A stretch of DNA of 40,904 nt, taken from Actinomycetota bacterium (GTDB lineage: Bacteria > Actinomycetota > Acidimicrobiia > Acidimicrobiales > Ilumatobacteraceae). This document shows positions 18,244 to 34,544 of the stretch, in pieces. Both the position numbers and the translations under genes were made by a program. The first letter of the stretch is position 1. Every line of letters begins with the position of its first letter. Below the pieces are notes generated by a model. It made no database searches, was not told the origin of the DNA, and was given only the letters and a program-made list of their open reading frames with translations. The DNA lies in contig VFZD01000006.1 of NCBI GenBank assembly GCA_016871295.1, positions 1 through 40,904 on the forward strand. The letters run 5' to 3'.

Positions 18244-19833
18244 GTGACGATCGTCTGGAATGCCCAATGCGTCAGCGAGGGTCTCGAGAAAATTGACGAG
18301 GCACGACCAAAGGTTTTGGCGAAAGTCAAACAAATGCTCGATGCCTATCATCGAACCGAGAAATCCCCAAGATATTACGACATTCTCCTCGGTGATTGGG
18401 TCGAGAGGTATCTGCATCTCGTCTATGTGGCGGTGCAAAAACACTCGGTCGACTCGAAGATTCAGGTCGGTGGCGTCGACGCCGAAGAAAAATTGGAAAT
18501 CACCCCGAGCCGGGATCTCGCCGAGTTCTTCTCGGCACACCAAACATTGCCTGATCTCGTGTTGGCGACCCTGCAGACGATTTCGCTCCACGGCCCAGGA
18601 TCGCTGAAAATCCTCGGCGGAGAAGCGACGATCAAGAATTCGAACGAATCAAACCGACTCGATCTGTTGATTGCGAGTTTGATGCGGGTTCTTGCGCCCG
18701 GTTCTACGCCGAAGATCGTGTTCGTCAAGCCGTTCTCCGGTCGAACGCCTGGCTCATGGAGATCGGCAATGTGGTCATGGCGAAAATGGGCGAGACAAGA
18801 CGACATGGGTTTCGGTTTTTCTGTGCGAGCGAAGATCGACACGCAGTGGCGAAGCAACAATCTTTCAGGTTTTTCGACGCACGGCCACTTGGGTGAAGTC
18901 GCCAACGCGATGCTCTCGGCCTTTTTGCCTGTTTGCCTGGTCGAAGGTCTGGATCAAATCAAATCTCAGATGCTTTCGCATCGTGCAACGCGACCAGCGC
19001 ACGTCTATTCGGCGCAGTCGCTCTGGACCCACTTGGCGTTCAAAGTCTTGGTCGCGCAGTGGTGCGAAGACGGGAGCAAACTTCACTACCACCAGCATGG
19101 TGGCTGGTATGGCTTGGACGAGTCGCACGTAGCCGAGAAGTACGAATCACGCGTCGCCGACTACTACTACACATGGGGTTGGAGTCGAGGCTCGACGAAC
19201 ACGATTTCTTTGCCGCCAGTATTGCCGGCGCTCAAACGAAGCGGCGCAAGCCAAGACTCGCTGATTTGTTTCGATCAACCAAAAGAGATCTATCGCCTGC
19301 AGTACTTCCCTTTGCCTGGCACGATCCAAACGATGTACGAGCAGACTGCCGAGTTTGTCAAAACACGGCGAAGCGAGACGAATCTGGTCGTGCGACTTTT
19401 TCCGGGTGATTTTGGTCAAGCCCAGAGACAGGCGATCACAGCGGCGGGAGCCGCGACCAGTTTCGACAATTCGACGCCGATATTCGAGCAATACGGTTCG
19501 AGTCGAATTGTGTTTCACAACTATCTCGGCACTTCATGGTTGGAGACGATGGGCCTCGATATTCCGACGATTTGTTTCTACGACGTCGACGCCTACAGAT
19601 TCAGATCTGACGCCAAGAGCCTGCTCGAAGATCTCGTCGAAGCCGGAATTCTCCATTTGTCGGGTGAAAGCGCGGCCGACCACGCAAATTCGATCGAAAA
19701 CGATGTCGCCAAATGGTGGCTGCGAGACGATGTGCAGACGGCCAAAAGAAACTTCACTCGACAATACGCGAATTTCTCGCAGGATTGGAAAAGTGCTTGG
19801 GAGACCAACTTCGCCAGGTTTCTGATTCGCTGA
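18244..19833 (+). CDS. LIC12162-family putative carbohydrate transferase
   Basis: A 529-residue protein resembling the LIC12162 family of putative transferases found in surface-polysaccharide loci. It shows the family-like motif HYHQHGGWYGLDE in the middle and, near the C-terminus, the glycosyltransferase-B-like donor-site segment FHNYLGTSWLETMGLDIPTI followed by FYD. There is no signal peptide or membrane helix, so it should act in the cytoplasm on a nucleotide-sugar or lipid-linked acceptor. It starts at GTG (18244) and is followed after 4 bases by a methyltransferase gene. The glycosyltransferase-rich minus-strand block beyond suggests a common glycan product. Exact substrate unknown. Confidence 0.75.
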   Translation: MTIVWNAQCVSEGLEKIDEARPKVLAKVKQMLDAYHRTEKSPRYYDILLGDWVERYLHLVYVAVQKHSVDSKIQVGGVDAEEKLEITPSRDLAEFFSAHQTLPDLVLATLQTISLHGPGSLKILGGEATIKNSNESNRLDLLIASLMRVLAPGSTPKIVFVKPFSGRTPGSWRSAMWSWRKWARQDDMGFGFSVRAKIDTQWRSNNLSGFSTHGHLGEVANAMLSAFLPVCLVEGLDQIKSQMLSHRATRPAHVYSAQSLWTHLAFKVLVAQWCEDGSKLHYHQHGGWYGLDESHVAEKYESRVADYYYTWGWSRGSTNTISLPPVLPALKRSGASQDSLICFDQPKEIYRLQYFPLPGTIQTMYEQTAEFVKTRRSETNLVVRLFPGDFGQAQRQAITAAGAATSFDNSTPIFEQYGSSRIVFHNYLGTSWLETMGLDIPTICFYDVDAYRFRSDAKSLLEDLVEAGILHLSGESAADHANSIENDVAKWWLRDDVQTAKRNFTRQYANFSQDWKSAWETNFARFLIR

Positions 19834-19837
19834 ACCG

Positions 19838-20509
19838 ATGGCATCGAAAATTCCAAGAGCATTGCGCGAGTTGGCGCTTGCGACCAAGGGTTTCATGCCC
19901 CCCGACGAGGGCGATGCGTTGTTCGACGCGGCATCCGAAGCGTGTCGTGCGAAGCCGGGTCTTCCGTTGGTCGAGATCGGCACATACTGCGGTCGCTCGA
20001 CGGTCTGGCTCGGCGCGGCGGCGAAGAAGAACAACTCGGTTTTGTTTTCGGTAGATCATCACTTCGGCAGCGAAGAAAACCAGCGTGGATGGCCGTGGCA
20101 CGATGACTCGTTGGTCGATGCGCAAACCCAAAAACTCAACACCCTGCCCGAATTCTTGCGAACCCTCAGACAATCTGCGCTCGGGGATGCGGTGGTTCCG
20201 GTTGTCTCAGATTCTGGATTGTTCGGCGGTCAGTTTTCGACGCCGCTGGCATTCTTGTTCATCGACGGTGGTCACGGCGACACGCCGACCCGGCGTGATT
20301 ATCAGACCTGGACGCCAAAGATTGCGGTTGGTGGATACCTGGCGATTCACGACGTGTTCGCCGACCCGAAAGATGGCGGTCAAGCGCCCCATGATTTTAT
20401 TTATCGGCCCGCCCTTGATTCGGGCCTGTTCACCCAAGTTTCGGCCGCGGGTTCGCTTCGCGTATTGCGTCGCCGAAGCGCAGATCATCCATCGAGCTCT
20501 TCGTCGTAG
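19838..20509 (+). CDS. Class I SAM methyltransferase (Methyltransf_24-like)
   Basis: A 223-residue Rossmann-fold methyltransferase. SAM-binding motif I is LVEIGTYCGRSTVWLG (about residues 44-59), followed by the acidic FSVDHHFGSEE. A metal/substrate-site segment LFIDGGHGDTPTRRDY and then GGYLAIHDVF match the cephalosporin-hydroxylase/CmcI-like Methyltransf_24 group. It is coupled to the upstream LIC12162-type gene (4-base gap). Its last 25 bases overlap the convergent toroid-protein gene. Probable role: methylation of a sugar or polyketide-like group in the neighbouring glycan pathway. This is inference from context. Confidence 0.8.
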   Translation: MASKIPRALRELALATKGFMPPDEGDALFDAASEACRAKPGLPLVEIGTYCGRSTVWLGAAAKKNNSVLFSVDHHFGSEENQRGWPWHDDSLVDAQTQKLNTLPEFLRTLRQSALGDAVVPVVSDSGLFGGQFSTPLAFLFIDGGHGDTPTRRDYQTWTPKIAVGGYLAIHDVFADPKDGGQAPHDFIYRPALDSGLFTQVSAAGSLRVLRRRSADHPSSSSS

Positions 20510-21525
20510 CGAAAAATTCTCGAGGCCGGAGAGATCGAATACAAAGAGTCCGAAGCGAGAATTATCGCCGCGCCGGTGTATGCCGAGGTTTCTTCGGCGG
20601 GAAACACGATTTTGCCGGGGTAGACAAGGCCGGTCAGATACGAGCCGTCGGCCGTGCGATGGTGCGATGTCGAGTTGAGCAATAACTGCGCGGTGTCGAC
20701 ATCGCCGATCGCGGCGAATGCCATCGAACACTCGGCTGTTTCCGAGGCGGTGACCCACGGTTCGTCGCTGACGCACCGAACACCGTGATCGTGCATCACG
20801 AAAGTGTCGAAATTCTCTTCGAGGCGCGACTTTGCGGCTGCACCAACAAGCGATCCGCTCAAAACGGGGTAGTACCAGTCCATCGCCCAGCGTGTCTTGG
20901 GCTCGAAGACTTCGGGATGTTCGGCGATCATTGCGTCGATTGTCGCCGCGGCTTGCGACCACTCGGGTCGTGGTGACTTGATCAAGTCGGCGATCTTCGC
21001 CGCCGACACAAGCGCATGTCGAATCGACGCACATCCGGTCAACAGCGCATAAGACCAGGGCTTCGCGCTTTCTTCTCGGGCCCAAAGCACCGTGCCGTCG
21101 GCAAGCCGCATCGAGAGAACCCAGGTCATCGCCTTTTCGAGCATCGGCCAGAATCGTTTGAGCGCAGCAAAATCGCCGGTGCACAACCAGTGGTGCCACA
21201 GACCCGTGCCGATATAGGCGCAGACATTGCTGTCGAGTTTTGGGTCTTTGAGCGTGCCGTCGAAATTGAAATAGTTCGACCATGAGCCGTCGCTCTTCTG
21301 GTTTTTGCGCAACCATTCGTAGGCGCGATGCGCGTTTTCGTGCATGCCCATTACATCGAGAGCCATCGCCGTCTCGACATGGTTCCACGGGTCGCAGTGG
21401 CCGTTGACGAACCAGGGGATCATGCCCGAATCTCGTTGAAGATCGGCGATCGAAGCGGCGGTTTGCATCAATTGAGCGTGCGTCAAAACCCCTTCGACCG
21501 AAAGAGTTTTTTGGAGCGAGTTCAT
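20485..21525 (-). CDS. Alpha/alpha-toroid protein (prenyltransferase/terpene-cyclase-like)
   Basis: A 346-residue protein starting at the ATG (21523-21525) that overlaps the upstream methyltransferase stop. A longer open frame back to 21891 lies inside that methyltransferase and is not used. The sequence is a series of helical repeats rich in Trp. One clear QW-like motif is visible (WLRKNQKSDGSW), and NGHCDPWNHVETAMAL and DWYYPVLSGSL are striking. No DxDD cyclase motif is present, so it is not a functional squalene-hopene cyclase. Such proteins are often annotated prenyltransferase, but a six-hairpin glycosidase-like role is equally possible. The surrounding genes point to glycan processing. 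Confidence 0.7.
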   Translation of the reverse strand: MNSLQKTLSVEGVLTHAQLMQTAASIADLQRDSGMIPWFVNGHCDPWNHVETAMALDVMGMHENAHRAYEWLRKNQKSDGSWSNYFNFDGTLKDPKLDSNVCAYIGTGLWHHWLCTGDFAALKRFWPMLEKAMTWVLSMRLADGTVLWAREESAKPWSYALLTGCASIRHALVSAAKIADLIKSPRPEWSQAAATIDAMIAEHPEVFEPKTRWAMDWYYPVLSGSLVGAAAKSRLEENFDTFVMHDHGVRCVSDEPWVTASETAECSMAFAAIGDVDTAQLLLNSTSHHRTADGSYLTGLVYPGKIVFPAEETSAYTGAAIILASDSLYSISPASRIFRYDEELDG

Positions 21526-22265
21526 CGTCTTGCACCCACCAGTCGCCCAGATGGTTTGGTCGCATACACGACATAACTCTTGCCAATCATCGGACTCAGC
21601 GCCTTGTCGATCGCGCGGGTGATCGGCGGCGCGGAGATGATGTCCCATTCCAGAAATTTTTTGTAGATGGCGACGGCCTTGTTGTCTTCGCGTTGGGGGC
21701 CGACGGCGCAACGCAGCCACCAATAGGGAGAGTGCAGACCGTGAGCCTTGTGCGTCGAGTCGATTTCGAGACCTGCCCGCGAGATTTTTCGGCGCAACTC
21801 GCCACCTCGATATATCCGGACATGGCCGCCCGCGACGAACGGTGCATGATATTCGTCGGAGAGAGCCCAATTGATTTTTTCCGGAAACCACGCGGGAACC
21901 GTAGCCGCCAAAACGCCACCCGGTCGCAAGACCCGTTCGAACTCGGCGAGCGCGGTGGTGTCGTCATGAATGTGCTCGAGAACTTCGGAGGTCACGACGC
22001 AGTCGAAAGTCGAGTCGTTGAACGGCAGGCGCGTGGCGTCGCCGCGAACCACGCCCGCGAGCGACTCGGCGGTGAGTTCACCGGCTTCGTACATTGCGGC
22101 GAAAGTCGCCCGAGTGCCGGTTACTTCCGGTGCGGCATAGTCGAGAGCGACCACCCTGGCACCTCGTCGTGCCGCCTCGAAAGCGTGTCGACCAAAACCC
22201 GTGCCGGCGTCCAAAAACAGGTCACCTGGCTTGAGTCTCAGCCTGTCGAATTGGACGGTCAACAT
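21522..22265 (-). CDS. Class I SAM methyltransferase (Methyltransf_11-like)
   Basis: A 247-residue methyltransferase. The ATG at 22263-22265, one base after the glycosyltransferase stop, is the likely start. The frame is open further upstream, but that part overlaps the glycosyltransferase gene and reads as nonsense. Motif I is FLDAGTGFGRHAFEAARRG, with VVALDYA, then GDATRLPFNDSTFDCVVTSE, VLEHIHDD and LRPGGVLAATVP, all standard for UbiE/Methyltransf_11 enzymes. The C-terminal third (WWLRCAVGPQ and on) is specific to its subgroup. It is coupled on both sides, to a GT4 glycosyltransferase and the toroid protein. Confidence 0.88.
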   Translation of the reverse strand: MLTVQFDRLRLKPGDLFLDAGTGFGRHAFEAARRGARVVALDYAAPEVTGTRATFAAMYEAGELTAESLAGVVRGDATRLPFNDSTFDCVVTSEVLEHIHDDTTALAEFERVLRPGGVLAATVPAWFPEKINWALSDEYHAPFVAGGHVRIYRGGELRRKISRAGLEIDSTHKAHGLHSPYWWLRCAVGPQREDNKAVAIYKKFLEWDIISAPPITRAIDKALSPMIGKSYVVYATKPSGRLVGARR

Positions 22266-22266
22266 C

Positions 22267-23556
22267 TCAGGATTCTCTTTTCGCGAGTTTGGCGAGGTTG
22301 TGCGGCATTGAAAGCACCTCGCGGTACTGGTCGACGGTGAGTTGCGCGCAATGACGCCAACTCCATCTTTCGGCGACCCGTTGTCGACCTGCCTGACCGA
22401 TCTTTTCTCTGAGTTCGGCGTCGTCGAGCCCGCGCCGAATTGCCGATGCCAGAGCGTCGGCGTCGGCGGGGCCGCACGACAAGACCGTTTCGCCGTCGCG
22501 CCCGGTGACTTCGGGCAGTGCGCCACCGGTCGTGGCGACAAGGCAGATGCCGGTGCTCATCGCCTCGATCGCGGGCAAACTAAAACCCTCATAGAGGCTG
22601 GGCACAATTGCCAACTCTGATTCGGCGTAAAGCTCGACAATCTCTTCGTCCGAAACCCCGGAAACAAAACTGATGCAGTCTCGCAAACCGAGCGAGTCGA
22701 TCAAATCGGCGCTCGCACCCTCGCGCGCCCTGCCGATGATTGTCAAGTGAATCTCGCGCTCGGTGCGAAGTTTTGCCAGCGCCTCGAGCAAAAAAGAAAG
22801 ACCCTTGAGTGCGACGTCGGCGGACGCCGTGGTGATCAGGTGACCGGGTTTTCGGCGGATCGAAGTTATCGGTTTGAACAAATCGGGATCGACCCCGACT
22901 GGCACCAGGCGCATGCGATCTTTGGAGACACCCATGTCGGTATGAATGTCGTTGATCGAGTTCTCGCTGACAACGACAACGCGCGGCAGTTTGCTCGCGA
23001 CACGACTTTGCATCCACACGAATGAATACCATCTGCCGATTGCGCGTCGTTTCCACCATGATTTCGTGTGCGACATTTCGAGCATGCGATCTCTGGTGAT
23101 CGGGTGATGCAAAGTGACGATCGTCGGAATGATCTTTTCGATCTTGAGAATCGATGTGCCGAGGCACTGGTTGTCGTGAACCAAGTCGAAGTCGTTGATG
23201 CGCCCACGCAAAGCGCGGTGCGCCCGCATGCTGAACGTGAGCGGCTCGGCGAATGTGCCTTTGAGAAGCATCGCCGCCTCGACGAGATTCGGCCAAGTGT
23301 TCAATTCCCAGTAGGCGGGAAACCGACCCGGGTGATGGTCATTGAAGATGTCGAGACTCGGCAACTTGTGCATGGTGATCCGCGGGTCGATGATCGGGTA
23401 TGGCTGGCCACTGAAAACTTCGACGTGGTGACCCAGGTCGACGAGGGCTTTGGTCAGGTGCCGCGAATAGACGCCCTGACCACCGACATGGGCTTTGCCG
23501 CGATATGTCAGGTACGCGAGCCGAATCGGACCGTTGACATCAAACGGTTTTTTCAT
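22267..23556 (-). CDS. Family 4 glycosyltransferase (GT-B)
   Basis: A 429-residue retaining glycosyltransferase of GT4. The N-terminal Rossmann domain has AYLTYRGKAHVGGQGVYSRH, the acceptor-side Gly-rich loop. The C-terminal donor domain has VPVGVDPDLFKP, the VALKGLSFLLEALAKL segment, and the E-x7-E motif in YEGFSLPAIEAM that binds the nucleotide sugar. Cytoplasmic, perhaps membrane-associated. It heads a three-gene set (glycosyltransferase, methyltransferase, toroid protein) with gaps of +1 and -4 bases, so their products very likely act together. The start ATG at 23556 has an AGGA ribosome-binding site. The aldose epimerase gene lies 43 bases upstream on the same strand. Confidence 0.92.
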   Translation of the reverse strand: MKKPFDVNGPIRLAYLTYRGKAHVGGQGVYSRHLTKALVDLGHHVEVFSGQPYPIIDPRITMHKLPSLDIFNDHHPGRFPAYWELNTWPNLVEAAMLLKGTFAEPLTFSMRAHRALRGRINDFDLVHDNQCLGTSILKIEKIIPTIVTLHHPITRDRMLEMSHTKSWWKRRAIGRWYSFVWMQSRVASKLPRVVVVSENSINDIHTDMGVSKDRMRLVPVGVDPDLFKPITSIRRKPGHLITTASADVALKGLSFLLEALAKLRTEREIHLTIIGRAREGASADLIDSLGLRDCISFVSGVSDEEIVELYAESELAIVPSLYEGFSLPAIEAMSTGICLVATTGGALPEVTGRDGETVLSCGPADADALASAIRRGLDDAELREKIGQAGRQRVAERWSWRHCAQLTVDQYREVLSMPHNLAKLAKRES

Positions 23557-23599: not shown

Positions 23600-24385
23600 C
23601 TATCTAGTTATTGCTAGGCGCATGTATCTGGTCAAGGGTGAATCGGGCGTGATGCAAAACGGTTCGAGATTGAAGCCATCGGGCGGACCAGATTGCGGCT
23701 CGACACAAATCGCGTGCTCGGGCTGGTCGTAGATCACCCAGTGCGAGCAGTCGCTTTCGAGCGCCACACAAATCAACTCATCGAAAATGATTCGCGGCGC
23801 ACGAAGCGCCCCGCGAAAGCAGTCGTCATACGGCGGGGGTGGAGGTGCAATCGTCTTTCCGGTGGGGATACCCGCGGCATCGCGGACATACATTTCTGAA
23901 AACTCGGCCTCGAGACGACACGGACGCGCGAACCACGGGTGCCAACCGACCTGAGCCGGCATTTTCGGCGAGCGGGTCTGCACGGTCAGCGAGCAATTCA
24001 ATACATCATCCACGAGCGAGATTGTTTGCGTGACGGAACCGTCAAACGCGAAACGGTCGCCAAGTTCGACCTGCATGGTCAGACCTGTCGTCGTCGCATC
24101 GAGGACTTTGAACGGGCGATCCAGCACCGTGCCGTGAATCGCGTGGGGCGGCATGCTCAGTTCCAACTGGTGCTCGACACCGTCGAATTTGAATTTGCCG
24201 TCGCGAACTCTTCCCGCATACGGCACCATCGGATAAGAGCCCCATCGTTGCGGATTCATCTCGGAGTTTTTGCCGATCAGCAATTCGCGACCAAAGGCAA
24301 CCAGCGAAGCGAGACGGCCGCCGTTTGCCGCGTCGACTTCGCAACGCGTGTTCTCGCCGGTCAATACGAACGATTCTTTACTCAC
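23600..24385 (-). CDS. Aldose 1-epimerase-like protein
   Basis: A 261-residue galactose-mutarotase-fold protein, somewhat short for GalM. Features: N-terminal DAANGGRLASLV, the substrate-site GSYPMVPYAGRVRDG, His in PPHAIHG, the second His in VGWHPWFARP, and the candidate catalytic Glu in CVEPQSGPPDGFN. It should interconvert alpha and beta anomers of a hexose or hexose phosphate. Its ATG overlaps the stop of the upstream lnt homologue (ATGA at 24382-24385), so the two are translationally coupled. This is an unexpected pairing that puts it in the same transcript as lipoprotein and glycan genes. Confidence 0.87.
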   Translation of the reverse strand: MSKESFVLTGENTRCEVDAANGGRLASLVAFGRELLIGKNSEMNPQRWGSYPMVPYAGRVRDGKFKFDGVEHQLELSMPPHAIHGTVLDRPFKVLDATTTGLTMQVELGDRFAFDGSVTQTISLVDDVLNCSLTVQTRSPKMPAQVGWHPWFARPCRLEAEFSEMYVRDAAGIPTGKTIAPPPPPYDDCFRGALRAPRIIFDELICVALESDCSHWVIYDQPEHAICVEPQSGPPDGFNLEPFCITPDSPLTRYMRLAITR

Positions 24386-25875
24386 ACATTTGCGGGTTTT
24401 CGAGTTTTGACGAGCACGATTGCGAAGAGGGCGATGAGCAGGCCGGCGATGAATGGACCGTCGCCGATTATCGAATAGACGGTTCGGCCAGTTCGCAGCG
24501 GCACATCGATGATCGATGTTTGACCGACACCGATCGGCACCCGATTCGTGATTCTTCCCGACGGCTCGATCAGCGCACTGAAGCCCGTGGTTGCCGCTTG
24601 CACCACATACCTGCCCGTTTCACGCGTGCGCAACGAATTCGCCGCGAGTTGCTGGGTTTGCAGCACGGTGCCCGTGAAAGTCGAACCGTTCGTCGGGTTG
24701 AGCAGAACTTGACCACCCGCTTCGACACCGCTGTTTGCGCGACCGGCAAAAAATGCCTCCCATGAGATCACTACGGCGACTTTTTCGCCCTTGACTTCGA
24801 GAATCGCCGGTTCGTTACCCGCCACCGCATCGTTCGGAACTTGATCCATCGGGGCACCAATCGCGCTGAGCACCCTGCGCAGACCGACGGGGACATATTC
24901 GCCGAAGGGCGCGCGACGAACCTTGTCGTAGCGAGAATTGATTTCACCTGTTGGTCGAACCACGAGTTGGGCGTTGGTGAACTGGTTTGGCCCAGCGTCC
25001 TCGGTGATGCCGACGATGAATTCGGCGTTCAAGCGTCGCGCTTCGGCGAGGATCTCCTCGTATTCGACGCTGGAAACGAATTTGGCGACATCGATGACGT
25101 TCTCGGGCCAAAGCACAGCGTCCAGTTGGTCGCCGACTTCGAGAGTTTTTGTGACCGCCAAGTGGCGGTCGACCGCGTCACGCGCCCGGGTATTGATCGC
25201 CAACACGCCCTGAGGCCCGCCGCCTTGCACGATCGCCAAGCGCAAGTTTTCACCCGTGTTCTTGACGGGCGAGATGTTCAGCGCAAGAAGAATCAAGCAA
25301 CCGAGCGCCACAGCCAGACAAAACACAGTTGGTCGTGATTCACGATGATCGAAGTGGGCACGAATGGTCGCCGCGGTCTGCAAGACAAACCAAGTCGTCA
25401 AGACGGGGCCACCCAAGGTGGCAATTGAGGCGAGCCATGTTTGCGAAATTGCGATCGGAATCGTGGCCAGGGGTACGCCGCCAAACGGAACAGAAAACCG
25501 CAACGCTTCGGCCAAACAATGGGCAATTGGTCGAGACAACACGGGGTTGCCGACCCGACCAGCGACGGCCGCGGCGATGCCGTGTAATGTCGCGAACAAG
25601 AACACCACTATCAGATAACCGGGCGCGGTGAGCCACCACATCCACGACATGCCGAGGCTGAACCACGGCGCCGCAAAGAGCATGCCGAGTGCGAAAAGTT
25701 CGCGAGTGCTCGTCGTCGCGTTGGATATCGCGAAAAAAACGGCGATCCCCAAGATTGCCAGCGGCCACCAACCCCACGGGGGCAAGCTGAAGCCGACGAG
25801 TATTCCGCAAACAAGTGTGCCGAGTTTTCGTCCGCGGCGTGATTTCATGGACGCCAATTTGTTCAACACGCGCAA
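24382..25875 (-). CDS. lnt: Apolipoprotein N-acyltransferase homologue with Cys-to-Ser nucleophile
   Basis: A 497-residue membrane protein with the Lnt layout: about six N-terminal transmembrane helices (to about residue 200), a nitrilase-like domain (about 212-465) and a final helix. Lnt transfers an acyl chain from phospholipid to the N-terminal Cys of lipoproteins. The triad positions are Glu258 (LWPENV), Lys318 (YDKVRR) and, where E. coli Lnt has the nucleophilic Cys, Ser371 (VVISWEAFF; codon TCA at 24763-24765). Glu326 (FGEYVP) and Glu373 are kept. No cysteine occurs after residue 193. The enzyme is either inactive, altered, or uses Ser. Start at 25875; an in-frame ATG at 25848 is also possible. 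It lies 7 bases after the M48 protease gene. Confidence 0.88.
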   Translation of the reverse strand: MRVLNKLASMKSRRGRKLGTLVCGILVGFSLPPWGWWPLAILGIAVFFAISNATTSTRELFALGMLFAAPWFSLGMSWMWWLTAPGYLIVVFLFATLHGIAAAVAGRVGNPVLSRPIAHCLAEALRFSVPFGGVPLATIPIAISQTWLASIATLGGPVLTTWFVLQTAATIRAHFDHRESRPTVFCLAVALGCLILLALNISPVKNTGENLRLAIVQGGGPQGVLAINTRARDAVDRHLAVTKTLEVGDQLDAVLWPENVIDVAKFVSSVEYEEILAEARRLNAEFIVGITEDAGPNQFTNAQLVVRPTGEINSRYDKVRRAPFGEYVPVGLRRVLSAIGAPMDQVPNDAVAGNEPAILEVKGEKVAVVISWEAFFAGRANSGVEAGGQVLLNPTNGSTFTGTVLQTQQLAANSLRTRETGRYVVQAATTGFSALIEPSGRITNRVPIGVGQTSIIDVPLRTGRTVYSIIGDGPFIAGLLIALFAIVLVKTRKPANV

Positions 25876-25882
25876 TGACTCG

Positions 25883-26776
25883 TCACCTGAACGGGTCGTC
25901 GGTGCGGAGCAAAACTTTCAGATTGAAAATTCGCTCGCGCGCCGGCGGATGAGATGAAACGATCAATGCATTGTCGGGTTTGAGGTCGCCGGTCTCTGCG
26001 TCGTCGGCGACATGTTTGAGGGCCGCCAAAAGTTCATTGCCGAAACCCATCCGCACCACCCGATGGTCGGCTTGAAACTCTGAAGCGTGGCCTACGGCGC
26101 TGCTCAAAGCTTGGGCGACAAGCAGGCCGGCGACGAACATCGACGAGATCACGGTGAGAGCCGAGGCGACGAGCAGACCAAAAAACCTCAGCGCGGAAAA
26201 TTTCGACGAGAATGCGTTCGAGACTCGCTCTGCGAACCTCTGCAATGCGAAACCCAGGCGCGCGAGCAAAAGAATCGGCAGGCTCAACCATTGGGCGATG
26301 GTCAAAGCGACCGTGTGCGAGCCGAGGTGGTGACTCAATTCGTGCGCCAGAACACCCGCCAATTCATTTTCATCCAGTTCGTTGATCGCGTAGGACGAGA
26401 CAACGACGAGATGTCCGCCCGAGGCGAATGCGTTGATCTCGTTGCTGTCGACCACCGCCAAGACGAAACTTTCGCCGGTGACATGATTTGCCTGTGCGAC
26501 CCGACGCCACGACTTGTGCAAGATCGCCGCCTCTTTTGTCGAGGGTTTGCGGGCGTTGAGCAATCGCGAGAGGAACATCCGCTGGATCGACCTCGAGAAT
26601 AGAACCACGCCGAGAGCCAACGATGCGAACGCAAACAGCGGGTATGAGACGTCGGTGAACCGCCAGAACGGAAGCCAAAAAATCGCGATTGCGATCAGCC
26701 AAATCGGGATCAGTGCGGCGACGGGTGCCAGTGCGCTGATCGCCGCCGAGTCGATTTGGCGCCGTGCGGTGGACAT
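25883..26776 (-). CDS. M48-family membrane metalloprotease (HtpX-like)
   Basis: A 297-residue membrane protease. Two hydrophobic N-terminal helices lie at about residues 18-36 and 46-62. The zinc motif HELSH is at 145-149 (LAHELSHHLGSH), and the third ligand Glu233 is in ASEFQADHR. Two more hydrophobic segments lie at about 155-175 and 197-222. The NAFASGGHLVVVSSYAI segment before the motif is typical of M48. HtpX enzymes cleave misfolded membrane proteins in quality control, with the active site facing the cytoplasm. It is the first gene of a minus-strand run reaching 20485 and is divergent from lgt. Confidence 0.9.
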   Translation of the reverse strand: MSTARRQIDSAAISALAPVAALIPIWLIAIAIFWLPFWRFTDVSYPLFAFASLALGVVLFSRSIQRMFLSRLLNARKPSTKEAAILHKSWRRVAQANHVTGESFVLAVVDSNEINAFASGGHLVVVSSYAINELDENELAGVLAHELSHHLGSHTVALTIAQWLSLPILLLARLGFALQRFAERVSNAFSSKFSALRFFGLLVASALTVISSMFVAGLLVAQALSSAVGHASEFQADHRVVRMGFGNELLAALKHVADDAETGDLKPDNALIVSSHPPARERIFNLKVLLRTDDPFR

Positions 26777-26851
26777 CCATTAAGTAGACCAGCAAAAAGC
26801 GCGAGAAGGCAACCGAGCCCCGATTTGGGCGCAACAACTAACCTGAAAACG

Positions 26852-27655
26852 ATGTTGTCGGTGATTCCGAGTCCGTCTGCGGGTTCGCTCGAACTCGGTC
26901 CGTTGAAGTTCAACGCCTACGGATTGATGATTGCTCTCGCCGTGCTCGCCGCGGTTTGGTTGTCGAAGAAGCGGTTCGGTGATCGCGGAATCGGCAAACC
27001 CGAAGATGCCGGATCGATCGCGATGGTCGCCGTGCCGATCGGCATCGTCGGCGCGCGTCTGTACCACGTGCTCACCGATTGGGAGAAGTTCGATGGTCGG
27101 TTGATCGACACGATCAAAATTTGGCAGGGTGGACTCGGAATTTGGGGAGGTATCTCGGTCGGGGTCGTCGCCGGGGTGTTCGCGGCAAAGGCGAGGCAGA
27201 TGCCGGTCGCCGCAGGTCTGACATGCGTCGCACCGGCGTTGGCGCTCGCGCAGTCGATTGGTCGATGGGGAAATTGGTTCAATCAGGAACTCTTCGGAAA
27301 ACCCACCGATCTGGTGTGGGCTCTGCAAGTTTCGGCGGCAAAAGCGCAAGCCGCCGGCTTCGAGGCGGGAACAACTTTTCATCCGACGTTTCTCTACGAA
27401 TCGATTGGCTGTCTTGTGATCTGCCTTGGTTTGCTCAAGGCCGATAAGCGGTGGCGCTTCAAGGACGGAACATTGTTCGCGATGTATGTCGCGGCATACA
27501 CATTTTTGCGGTTCTTCGTCGAGTCGCTGCGCATCGATTCGACGAAAAATGTCGGGGGTTTGCGTCTTAATCAGTGGACATCGATCGTCGTGTTCGCATG
27601 CGCCGTGATCTATCTGGCGGCTTCGAACAAGAAATCTGGATCACGGCAGGCTTAG
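26852..27655 (+). CDS. lgt: Prolipoprotein diacylglyceryl transferase
   Basis: A 267-residue multi-pass membrane enzyme that attaches diacylglycerol to the lipobox Cys of prolipoproteins. Motifs: FNAYGLMIALAVL near residue 22, VPIGIVGARLYHVLTDW, the IWQGGLGIWGG loop (the Trp form seen in actinobacteria instead of the E. coli His), and the signature SIGRWGNWFNQELFGKPTDL. RFFVESLRID near the end carries the second essential Arg. The ATG at 26852 fits the family N-terminus; the frame is open to 26756 but that part is not conserved-looking. The gene is near the lnt homologue but in the opposite direction, and just upstream of gatC (43-base gap). Confidence 0.95.
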   Translation: MLSVIPSPSAGSLELGPLKFNAYGLMIALAVLAAVWLSKKRFGDRGIGKPEDAGSIAMVAVPIGIVGARLYHVLTDWEKFDGRLIDTIKIWQGGLGIWGGISVGVVAGVFAAKARQMPVAAGLTCVAPALALAQSIGRWGNWFNQELFGKPTDLVWALQVSAAKAQAAGFEAGTTFHPTFLYESIGCLVICLGLLKADKRWRFKDGTLFAMYVAAYTFLRFFVESLRIDSTKNVGGLRLNQWTSIVVFACAVIYLAASNKKSGSRQA

Positions 27656-33449: not shown

Positions 33450-34544
33450 TCACTTCGTGAGCAAACCTACTTCCTCGAGCAGTTCTTGCGTCTCTTCGAG
33501 TGTCTTTAGGTCGGCAAGGTCGACCGACGGCGGGTTGAGTTCCGCCAGTGCGGGCAGCGACACGAATTGAATCACGCCTGGGATCATCGGGTACTCGAAT
33601 GTCTTGCCGGCGAAATATGACTGACCAGCCACCGACAACAGATACCTAACGAGGACCAGCGCGGCGTCGGACTTCTTGCTCGATGCCAGCACCCCGACGC
33701 CAGCAATGTTCACGAGACTGCCTGCGTCACCATCTCTGAAGAAGTGGTTCTTGGCGACCACCTTGTCTGCGCCAATCTTCGAAATCAACTCGTACAAGTA
33801 GTAGTGATTGATCAGACCCATTGATATTTCGCCCGAGTTCACGGCGTCGCGCACGACACCGTTCTTCTCGTAGGCGACCGGTTCGTTCGCGGCAAGACCC
33901 GTCAACCAGGCGCGTGCACCATCTTCGCCTCGCGTGAGTCGCAACGCGGTGACGAACGACTGCCATGAAGCATTCGACGGCGCATAGCCGATCTTGCCCT
34001 TCCACTGCGGATCCAGCAAGTCATCCAACGACGCTGGTGGAGTCGCAACGAGTTCGGGGTTGTACACCAGCACACGGGCACGACCACTGGTGGCCACCCA
34101 CGCTCCGCTTGTCGAGCGGAACTTCGCCTCGACTGCGTCGGTGACGTCGGCTGGCAGCGTGCTCAGCAAACCGGCGGATTCAACGGCGCCGAGCGCACCG
34201 GCATCTTGTGAGAAGTAGATGTCGGCCGGAGATTTGTCGCCCTCGGTCAAAAGCAGCGCGGCAAGTTCGCCGCTGTCGCCGTAGCGCACTTCGACCTTGA
34301 CGCCCGTGTCGATGGTGAATTGCGTGAAAAGCGCCGACATAAGCGCTTCACTGCGACCGCTGTAGATGGTGATCGTCTCGCCGCGCACGTCAACCGCGCT
34401 TGGTGCCTCGGTAGGGGCTGGCTCGGCAGTGTCGCCGGTGGTGTTAGTCGCGTTGCTCGAGCAGGCACCGATCATCGCTAGTGGCAGGGCAAGCGTGGCG
34501 ATCGTGAGTGCTGAACGACTCGAGATTCTTTTCAATTTCTTCAT
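33450..34544 (-). CDS. fbpA: Iron(III) ABC transporter substrate-binding lipoprotein
   Basis: A 364-residue lipoprotein. The N-terminus has a basic region, a hydrophobic stretch and the lipobox IGAC with Cys28, so Lgt should lipidate it. An acidic Thr/Pro-rich linker follows, then a periplasmic-binding fold (ITIYSGRSEALMSALFTQF at about residue 58, YGDSGELAALLL, SPADIYFSQDAGAL). The tandem Tyr248-Tyr249 in GLINHYYLYEL matches the Fe(III)-coordinating tyrosines of FbpA/FutA-type ferric binding proteins. An AGGAG ribosome-binding site lies 11 bases before the ATG. Two DtxR/IdeR-type boxes lie immediately upstream, supporting iron as the ligand. The order binding protein, permease, ATPase is transcribed as one operon. 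Confidence 0.9.
   Translation of the reverse strand: MKKLKRISSRSALTIATLALPLAMIGACSSNATNTTGDTAEPAPTEAPSAVDVRGETITIYSGRSEALMSALFTQFTIDTGVKVEVRYGDSGELAALLLTEGDKSPADIYFSQDAGALGAVESAGLLSTLPADVTDAVEAKFRSTSGAWVATSGRARVLVYNPELVATPPASLDDLLDPQWKGKIGYAPSNASWQSFVTALRLTRGEDGARAWLTGLAANEPVAYEKNGVVRDAVNSGEISMGLINHYYLYELISKIGADKVVAKNHFFRDGDAGSLVNIAGVGVLASSKKSDAALVLVRYLLSVAGQSYFAGKTFEYPMIPGVIQFVSLPALAELNPPSVDLADLKTLEETQELLEEVGLLTK

Follow-up and report, generated by a model that had tools for sequence, protein, structure and literature searches.

The gene at 24382-25875 on the minus strand of the window, i.e. the whole stretch of 40,904 nucleotides from an Ilumatobacteraceae genome analysed here, raises the question whether an apolipoprotein N-acyltransferase (Lnt) can operate with a serine at the position of its catalytic cysteine. 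The gene starts with TTG and encodes a full-length protein of 497 amino acids, in which we identified an LNT_N membrane domain (PF20154, residues 24-169; 25369-25806, minus strand) and a nitrilase (CN_hydrolase) domain (PF00795, residues 260-462; 24490-25098, minus strand), with Glu258 located just upstream of the latter match. The open reading frame scored 204.9 bits against the NCBIfam Lnt equivalog TIGR00546 (cutoff 132.9), and the other TIGR00546 matches were weak, being either below the cutoff or restricted to the nitrilase part. An AlphaFold model generated from a 65-row alignment of the order reached a pLDDT of 93.9 and a pTM of 0.93, and a Foldseek search with this model returned Lnt entries at the top (E about 1e-21 to 1e-24), with TM-scores of 0.80-0.87 normalised on the query; the C387S mutants 8b0m and 5vrh were among them, and 8b0m, the C387S-PE complex, scored 0.87. 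Pfam matches and predicted model thus both indicate the two-domain Lnt fold of membrane and nitrilase domain, and a phmmer alignment with solved structures covered the Lnt proteins of P. aeruginosa and E. coli over nearly the whole length of the query.

Next to the fold, we considered the active site. Ser371 (TCA; 24763-24765, minus strand) corresponds to the nucleophile Cys387 of E. coli Lnt, and in the phmmer alignment it lies opposite the catalytic cysteine of P. aeruginosa Lnt 5n6m (query VISWEAFF versus YICYEVVY), so that the protein departs from an E-K-C Lnt in its nucleophile. The general base Glu267 of E. coli is represented by Glu258 (25102-25104), which is Glu in 100% of the order clade and of the cysteine enzymes, and the oxyanion stabiliser Lys335 by Lys318 (24922-24924; 100% Lys in all groups); Glu343 and Glu389 correspond to Glu326 within FGEYVP (24898-24900) and Glu373 (24757-24759), respectively, both 100% Glu in all groups (all minus strand). 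Translation and alignment confirmed the preliminary description with regard to Ser371 and its TCA codon, Glu258, Lys318 and the motifs FGEYVP, LLNPTNGS and TRETGRY. Its statement that no cysteine follows residue 193 holds for this open reading frame but not as a general rule, since some congeners contain one or two cysteines past column 193, never at the nucleophile; a nearby cysteine as substitute nucleophile was dismissed, because there is none at or close to position 371. Mapping on E. coli Lnt (row L197) further placed Trp372 at Tyr388 and Gln409 (24649-24651, minus strand) at His425, an active-site residue beside Cys387. Trp237, which is essential in E. coli, is missing, and it is not conserved in actinobacterial cysteine enzymes either. 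Compared to the Lnt proteins of E. coli and P. aeruginosa (5n6h, 5n6m), the homologue therefore shares the domain architecture, Glu, Lys, the second Glu and the post-nucleophile Glu, whereas it carries Ser for Cys387, Trp for Tyr388 and Gln for His425 and lacks Trp237. Judged by its sequence, it belongs to a serine variant lineage of Lnt rather than to the E-K-C enzymes and most likely works like Lnt.

A serine at this position could also reflect a sequencing or assembly error at 24763-24765 or the decay of the gene. Within the genus, a match was present in 25 of 29 genomes, as a single gene in each (one of them split over two contigs). At the family level, all 95 open reading frame reads that cover the nucleophile column carried serine (25 genera, some genomes being read twice), encoded by TCA, TCC, TCG or TCT. 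The 17 further rows of the order, from eleven other families, were serine without exception, and the same was true for 30 out of 30 loci in another sample of the order. In total, 27 family codes of the order have serine and no cysteine occurred among the orthologues read, many of the surveyed genomes being metagenome bins. Named serine relatives are Ilumatobacteraceae, Acidimicrobiales, Acidimicrobiaceae and Candidatus Microthrix; cysteine was found in Streptomyces, Klenkia, Microbacterium and all proteobacterial loci. The name Acidimicrobiales for the order is based on these relatives. Serine in all relatives of the order, the use of TCN as well as AGY codons and frames that are open throughout refute error and decay with near certainty, and we found no point in favour of either. 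That the gene is not decaying, as proposed earlier, is also borne out by the invariance of the rest of the catalytic set.

The alignment of the order allowed us to estimate the constraint on this set. Mean column identity among the 65 rows was 39%, with 41 invariant columns out of 497, and these include Ser371, Glu258, Lys318, Glu326, Glu373, Pro329 and Gly133. The chance that the five named catalytic positions all fall within the 41 invariant columns is about 4e-6. Since E258, K318, E326, S371 and E373 are invariant at such a low mean identity, the alignment argues for purifying selection on the complete catalytic set. We consider it likely that the product of 24382-25875 is the single Lnt of the lineage and follows the ping-pong mechanism of Lnt with a serine nucleophile. 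On the best reading, the serine version evolved naturally, and we infer catalysis, a lipid donor and, as the acceptor, the N-terminus of lipoproteins. Glu258 would deprotonate Ser371, and the diacylglyceryl-cysteine produced by Lgt and LspA would attack the resulting O-ester through its alpha-amine, so that the acyl chain would pass from the O-acyl enzyme to the lipoprotein amine and a triacylated lipoprotein would be formed. We know of no activity measurement for any natural serine Lnt, and our search of the open-access literature returned nothing on point for Lnt of Acidimicrobiia or serine nitrilases and no enzyme or lipoprotein data for the lineage.

In E. coli Lnt, the proton of Cys387 is taken by Glu267 and the oxyanion is stabilised by Lys335 together with Glu343, with His425 beside Cys387 suggested to accept protons as well (PMC5500888); all of these residues are kept in the homologue except the Cys and the His. 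The engineered E. coli mutant C387S (5vrh, 8b0m), which has the same nucleophile as the homologue, forms an O-acyl enzyme (PMC6828757). In vitro it was unable to transfer the acyl chain and was used as the inactive control (PMC6828757), which would fit a dead or acyl-holding pseudoenzyme with a structural or regulatory role, or an enzyme that stops at the acyl-enzyme. A cryo-EM study, in turn, reported conversion of diacyl FP2 to triacyl FP3 by the same mutant (PMC10313180). Formation of the O-acyl enzyme and of FP3 makes serine chemistry feasible; given the failed transfer in vitro, the second step from the O-ester is slow at best in the E. coli background, and a natural serine Lnt with tuned surroundings appears plausible. 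C387S was made in the laboratory, has low activity and retains His425, whereas the nucleophile of the natural enzymes is surrounded by other residues. A pseudoenzyme is also at odds with the five catalytic residues being invariant at 39% identity, and a non-catalytic role gives no reason for Ser specifically, in several separate lineages, instead of drift to Ala, Gly or Thr; we regard it as improbable. The earlier suggestion that a serine-based acyl-enzyme may operate is thus well supported by the fixation of serine, the invariant set and the data on E. coli C387S (PMC6828757, PMC10313180).

A natural precedent exists, which bears on the earlier question of whether family members with this serine are already known. 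The change of Cys387 to serine was reported in 2013 for mycobacterial BCG_2279c / Rv2262c-2261c, and BCG_2279c could not replace the cysteine enzyme BCG_2070c for the lipoproteins tested (PMC3850990), a result that likewise speaks for a pseudoenzyme. The substitution itself is therefore on record, but in a second gene copy, which failed to take over from the cysteine enzyme. BCG_2279c is a paralogue beside a working cysteine Lnt, whereas the serine form described here is the sole copy: the open reading frame at 24382-25875 is the only LNT_N match of its genome (91% complete), in which no hidden cysteine Lnt was found by this search, and a sole LNT_N gene is likewise the case in nearly every genome of the order that has one. 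Among our rows, L198, L199 and L312, the last being the serine Lnt of a named Mycobacterium sp., are probably of the BCG_2279c type, which has its own branch on the tree apart from the order clade (AGC codon in L198 and L199). To our knowledge, it is new that the serine form is the sole Lnt fixed throughout an order, that it extends into part of the class and that it originated repeatedly.

The residue at the His425 position differs between most serine and most cysteine enzymes. Column 409 holds His in 86% of the cysteine rows and Gln or Glu in the order clade; His is lacking in 46 of 47 serine rows, the exception being f42, versus 8 of 59 cysteine rows. The replacement of His425 in the serine rows suggests, as far as the alignment goes, a re-tuned pocket. 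A correlated loss of His425 with the gain of serine was set aside: there are not enough phylogenetically independent pairs to reach significance, and cysteine enzymes of the Ppm1 type lack the His as well. Ppm1-type Lnt proteins (M. tuberculosis Rv2051c, C. glutamicum, Streptomyces) resemble the homologue in having Gln at the His425 position but use a Cys nucleophile, and in some species they are fused to or located beside a polyprenol-phosphomannose synthase. A supported branch sets the tree rows with Gln at 409 and Cys, which we take to be Ppm1-type, and clade 1 apart from the remaining 69 rows.

An alignment of Lnt homologues from Acidimicrobiia and other actinobacteria at the nucleophile column, proposed in the preliminary description, placed serine in all orthologues read from the order, in 8 of the 28 further families that were sampled in the class (f14, f17, f19, f22, f25, f30, f33 and f34; cysteine in twenty) and sporadically in the rest of the phylum (f42, f72, f79 and second copies in f64, which is probably Mycobacterium). 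On a tree of 106 rows, from which the nucleophile column was left out, the order clade was serine in 31 of 31 rows (SH-aLRT 100), and six changes between Cys and Ser were counted, compared to about 35 with shuffled labels; well-supported branches make at least four of the six unavoidable. The tree thus indicates that serine arose several times. A single origin of the serine clades of order and class was rejected, at a borderline AU p of 0.0499. These Ser-type enzymes might in principle be a convergent branch of the nitrilase superfamily, whose O-acyl intermediate lets them acylate a new acceptor of the hydroxyl or glycan type, in place of lipoprotein N-termini or in addition to them, which we think has little likelihood. 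Family f28 (L110, L115) has a cysteine Lnt that is nested in serine clade 2 and still carries Phe at column 409, which suggests that this pair may represent a reversion from Ser to Cys, although AU tests did not reject alternative placements (p 0.21 and 0.15). AGY serine codons were found nested among TCN codons (14 versus 113). A switch between TCN and AGY takes two base changes and can run via Cys (TGY), and the nesting would fit an interchangeability of Ser and Cys.

The lipoprotein pathway is present in the lineage. Of 61 sampled genomes of the order, all had LspA, 60 had Lgt, 57 had the GT4 orthologue discussed below and 53 had LNT_N. The genome studied here has Lgt and LspA, and 5-6 lipobox candidates occur in the 441 kb that were sampled of it, namely the solute-binding lipoprotein at 33450-34544 of the window (minus strand; PF13343, lipobox IGAC), a likely substrate, and, within 400 kb from other contigs, five more candidates, of which one is doubtful. 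Lgt, LspA, lipobox proteins and the serine Lnt thus all co-occur in this genome. An LNT_N match was missing with Lgt and LspA kept in G178, G275, G206, G213, G449, G451, G458 and G464, which suggests repeated loss of Lnt within the order, although drafts are among these genomes. G040 (98% complete), the only one of the 61 genomes without an Lgt match, has LspA and a serine Lnt; its missing Lgt may be an assembly gap. A divergent type of Lgt, with E of about 1e-24 to 1e-34 and far lower-scoring than in the rest of the order, was observed in G178, G275, G206, G213, G217, G299 and G479, part of which lack Lnt.

The genes around lnt bear on a possible change of acceptor. On the minus strand, an M48 metallopeptidase (25883-26776; PF01435) lies upstream of lnt, which is followed by an aldose 1-epimerase-like gene (23600-24385; PF01263) whose GTG start overlaps the lnt stop, a GT4 glycosyltransferase (22267-23556; PF00534), a SAM-dependent methyltransferase (21522-22541; PF08241) and a protein weakly similar to oligosaccharide amylases (20485-21891; TIGR01577 44.4 bits, far under the cutoff), the last three being conserved neighbours. 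Lgt, the first enzyme of lipoprotein maturation, is encoded divergently upstream (26756-27655, plus strand; PF01790 215.5 bits). An active serine acyltransferase might pass the chain to a hydroxyl or an amine on a glycolipid, glycan or protein that the adjacent GT4, methyltransferase and epimerase genes produce or process. This would be in line with the run of GT4, methyltransferase and 20485-type gene adjoining the serine lnt in no fewer than six of the order's families (f1, f3, f6, f7, f8 and f12) and with a conserved NPTN motif and a change of Trp148 to Leu in the lid that are specific to the order clade. AatD, a Lnt homologue with the Lnt catalytic set, acylates an N-terminal glycine and thus sets a precedent for a changed acceptor, but it keeps its cysteine, Cys325 (PMC7943197). 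However, the GT4 orthologue (threshold E <= 1e-90) is retained in 8 of 8 genomes without an LNT_N match among the 61, so that an obligate coupling of lnt to the glycosyltransferase cluster is not supported, and their proximity argues only weakly for a role in glycan processing. Some families of the order do not have the GT4/methyltransferase neighbourhood and serine clade 2 lacks it altogether; the epimerase adjoins lnt in only some genera of the family and is often absent, and the full Lgt/LspA pathway is present. A changed role linked to the epimerase and the glycosyltransferase set, as envisaged in the preliminary description, is therefore weakly founded, and we hold a changed acceptor to be unlikely. 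The M48 and Lgt genes are located next to lnt in part of f1 only, and a 529-aa open reading frame at 18244-19833 (plus strand) had no Pfam match.

Large actinobacterial lineages appear to rely, for their only Lnt, on the residue of E. coli's inactive control. If the serine enzymes N-acylate lipoproteins, the Lnt branch of the nitrilase superfamily can do without a cysteine, Lnt inhibitors directed at thiols, for instance MTSES from a published assay, would be expected to fail on them, and a comparison of the several serine origins would show which residues allow the second step to start from an O-ester. Otherwise, an entire order has exchanged the function of an envelope enzyme that it encodes in a single copy.

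Two loci deviate in gene number. L028 (G052:C122) is a second, divergent Lnt-like gene with Ser beside the normal serine Lnt of the same genome, and it has Gln opposite the catalytic Glu column, where its alignment is uncertain. At L154 (G189:C7), two Lnt genes are arranged in tandem, with Ser at the nucleophile position in both.
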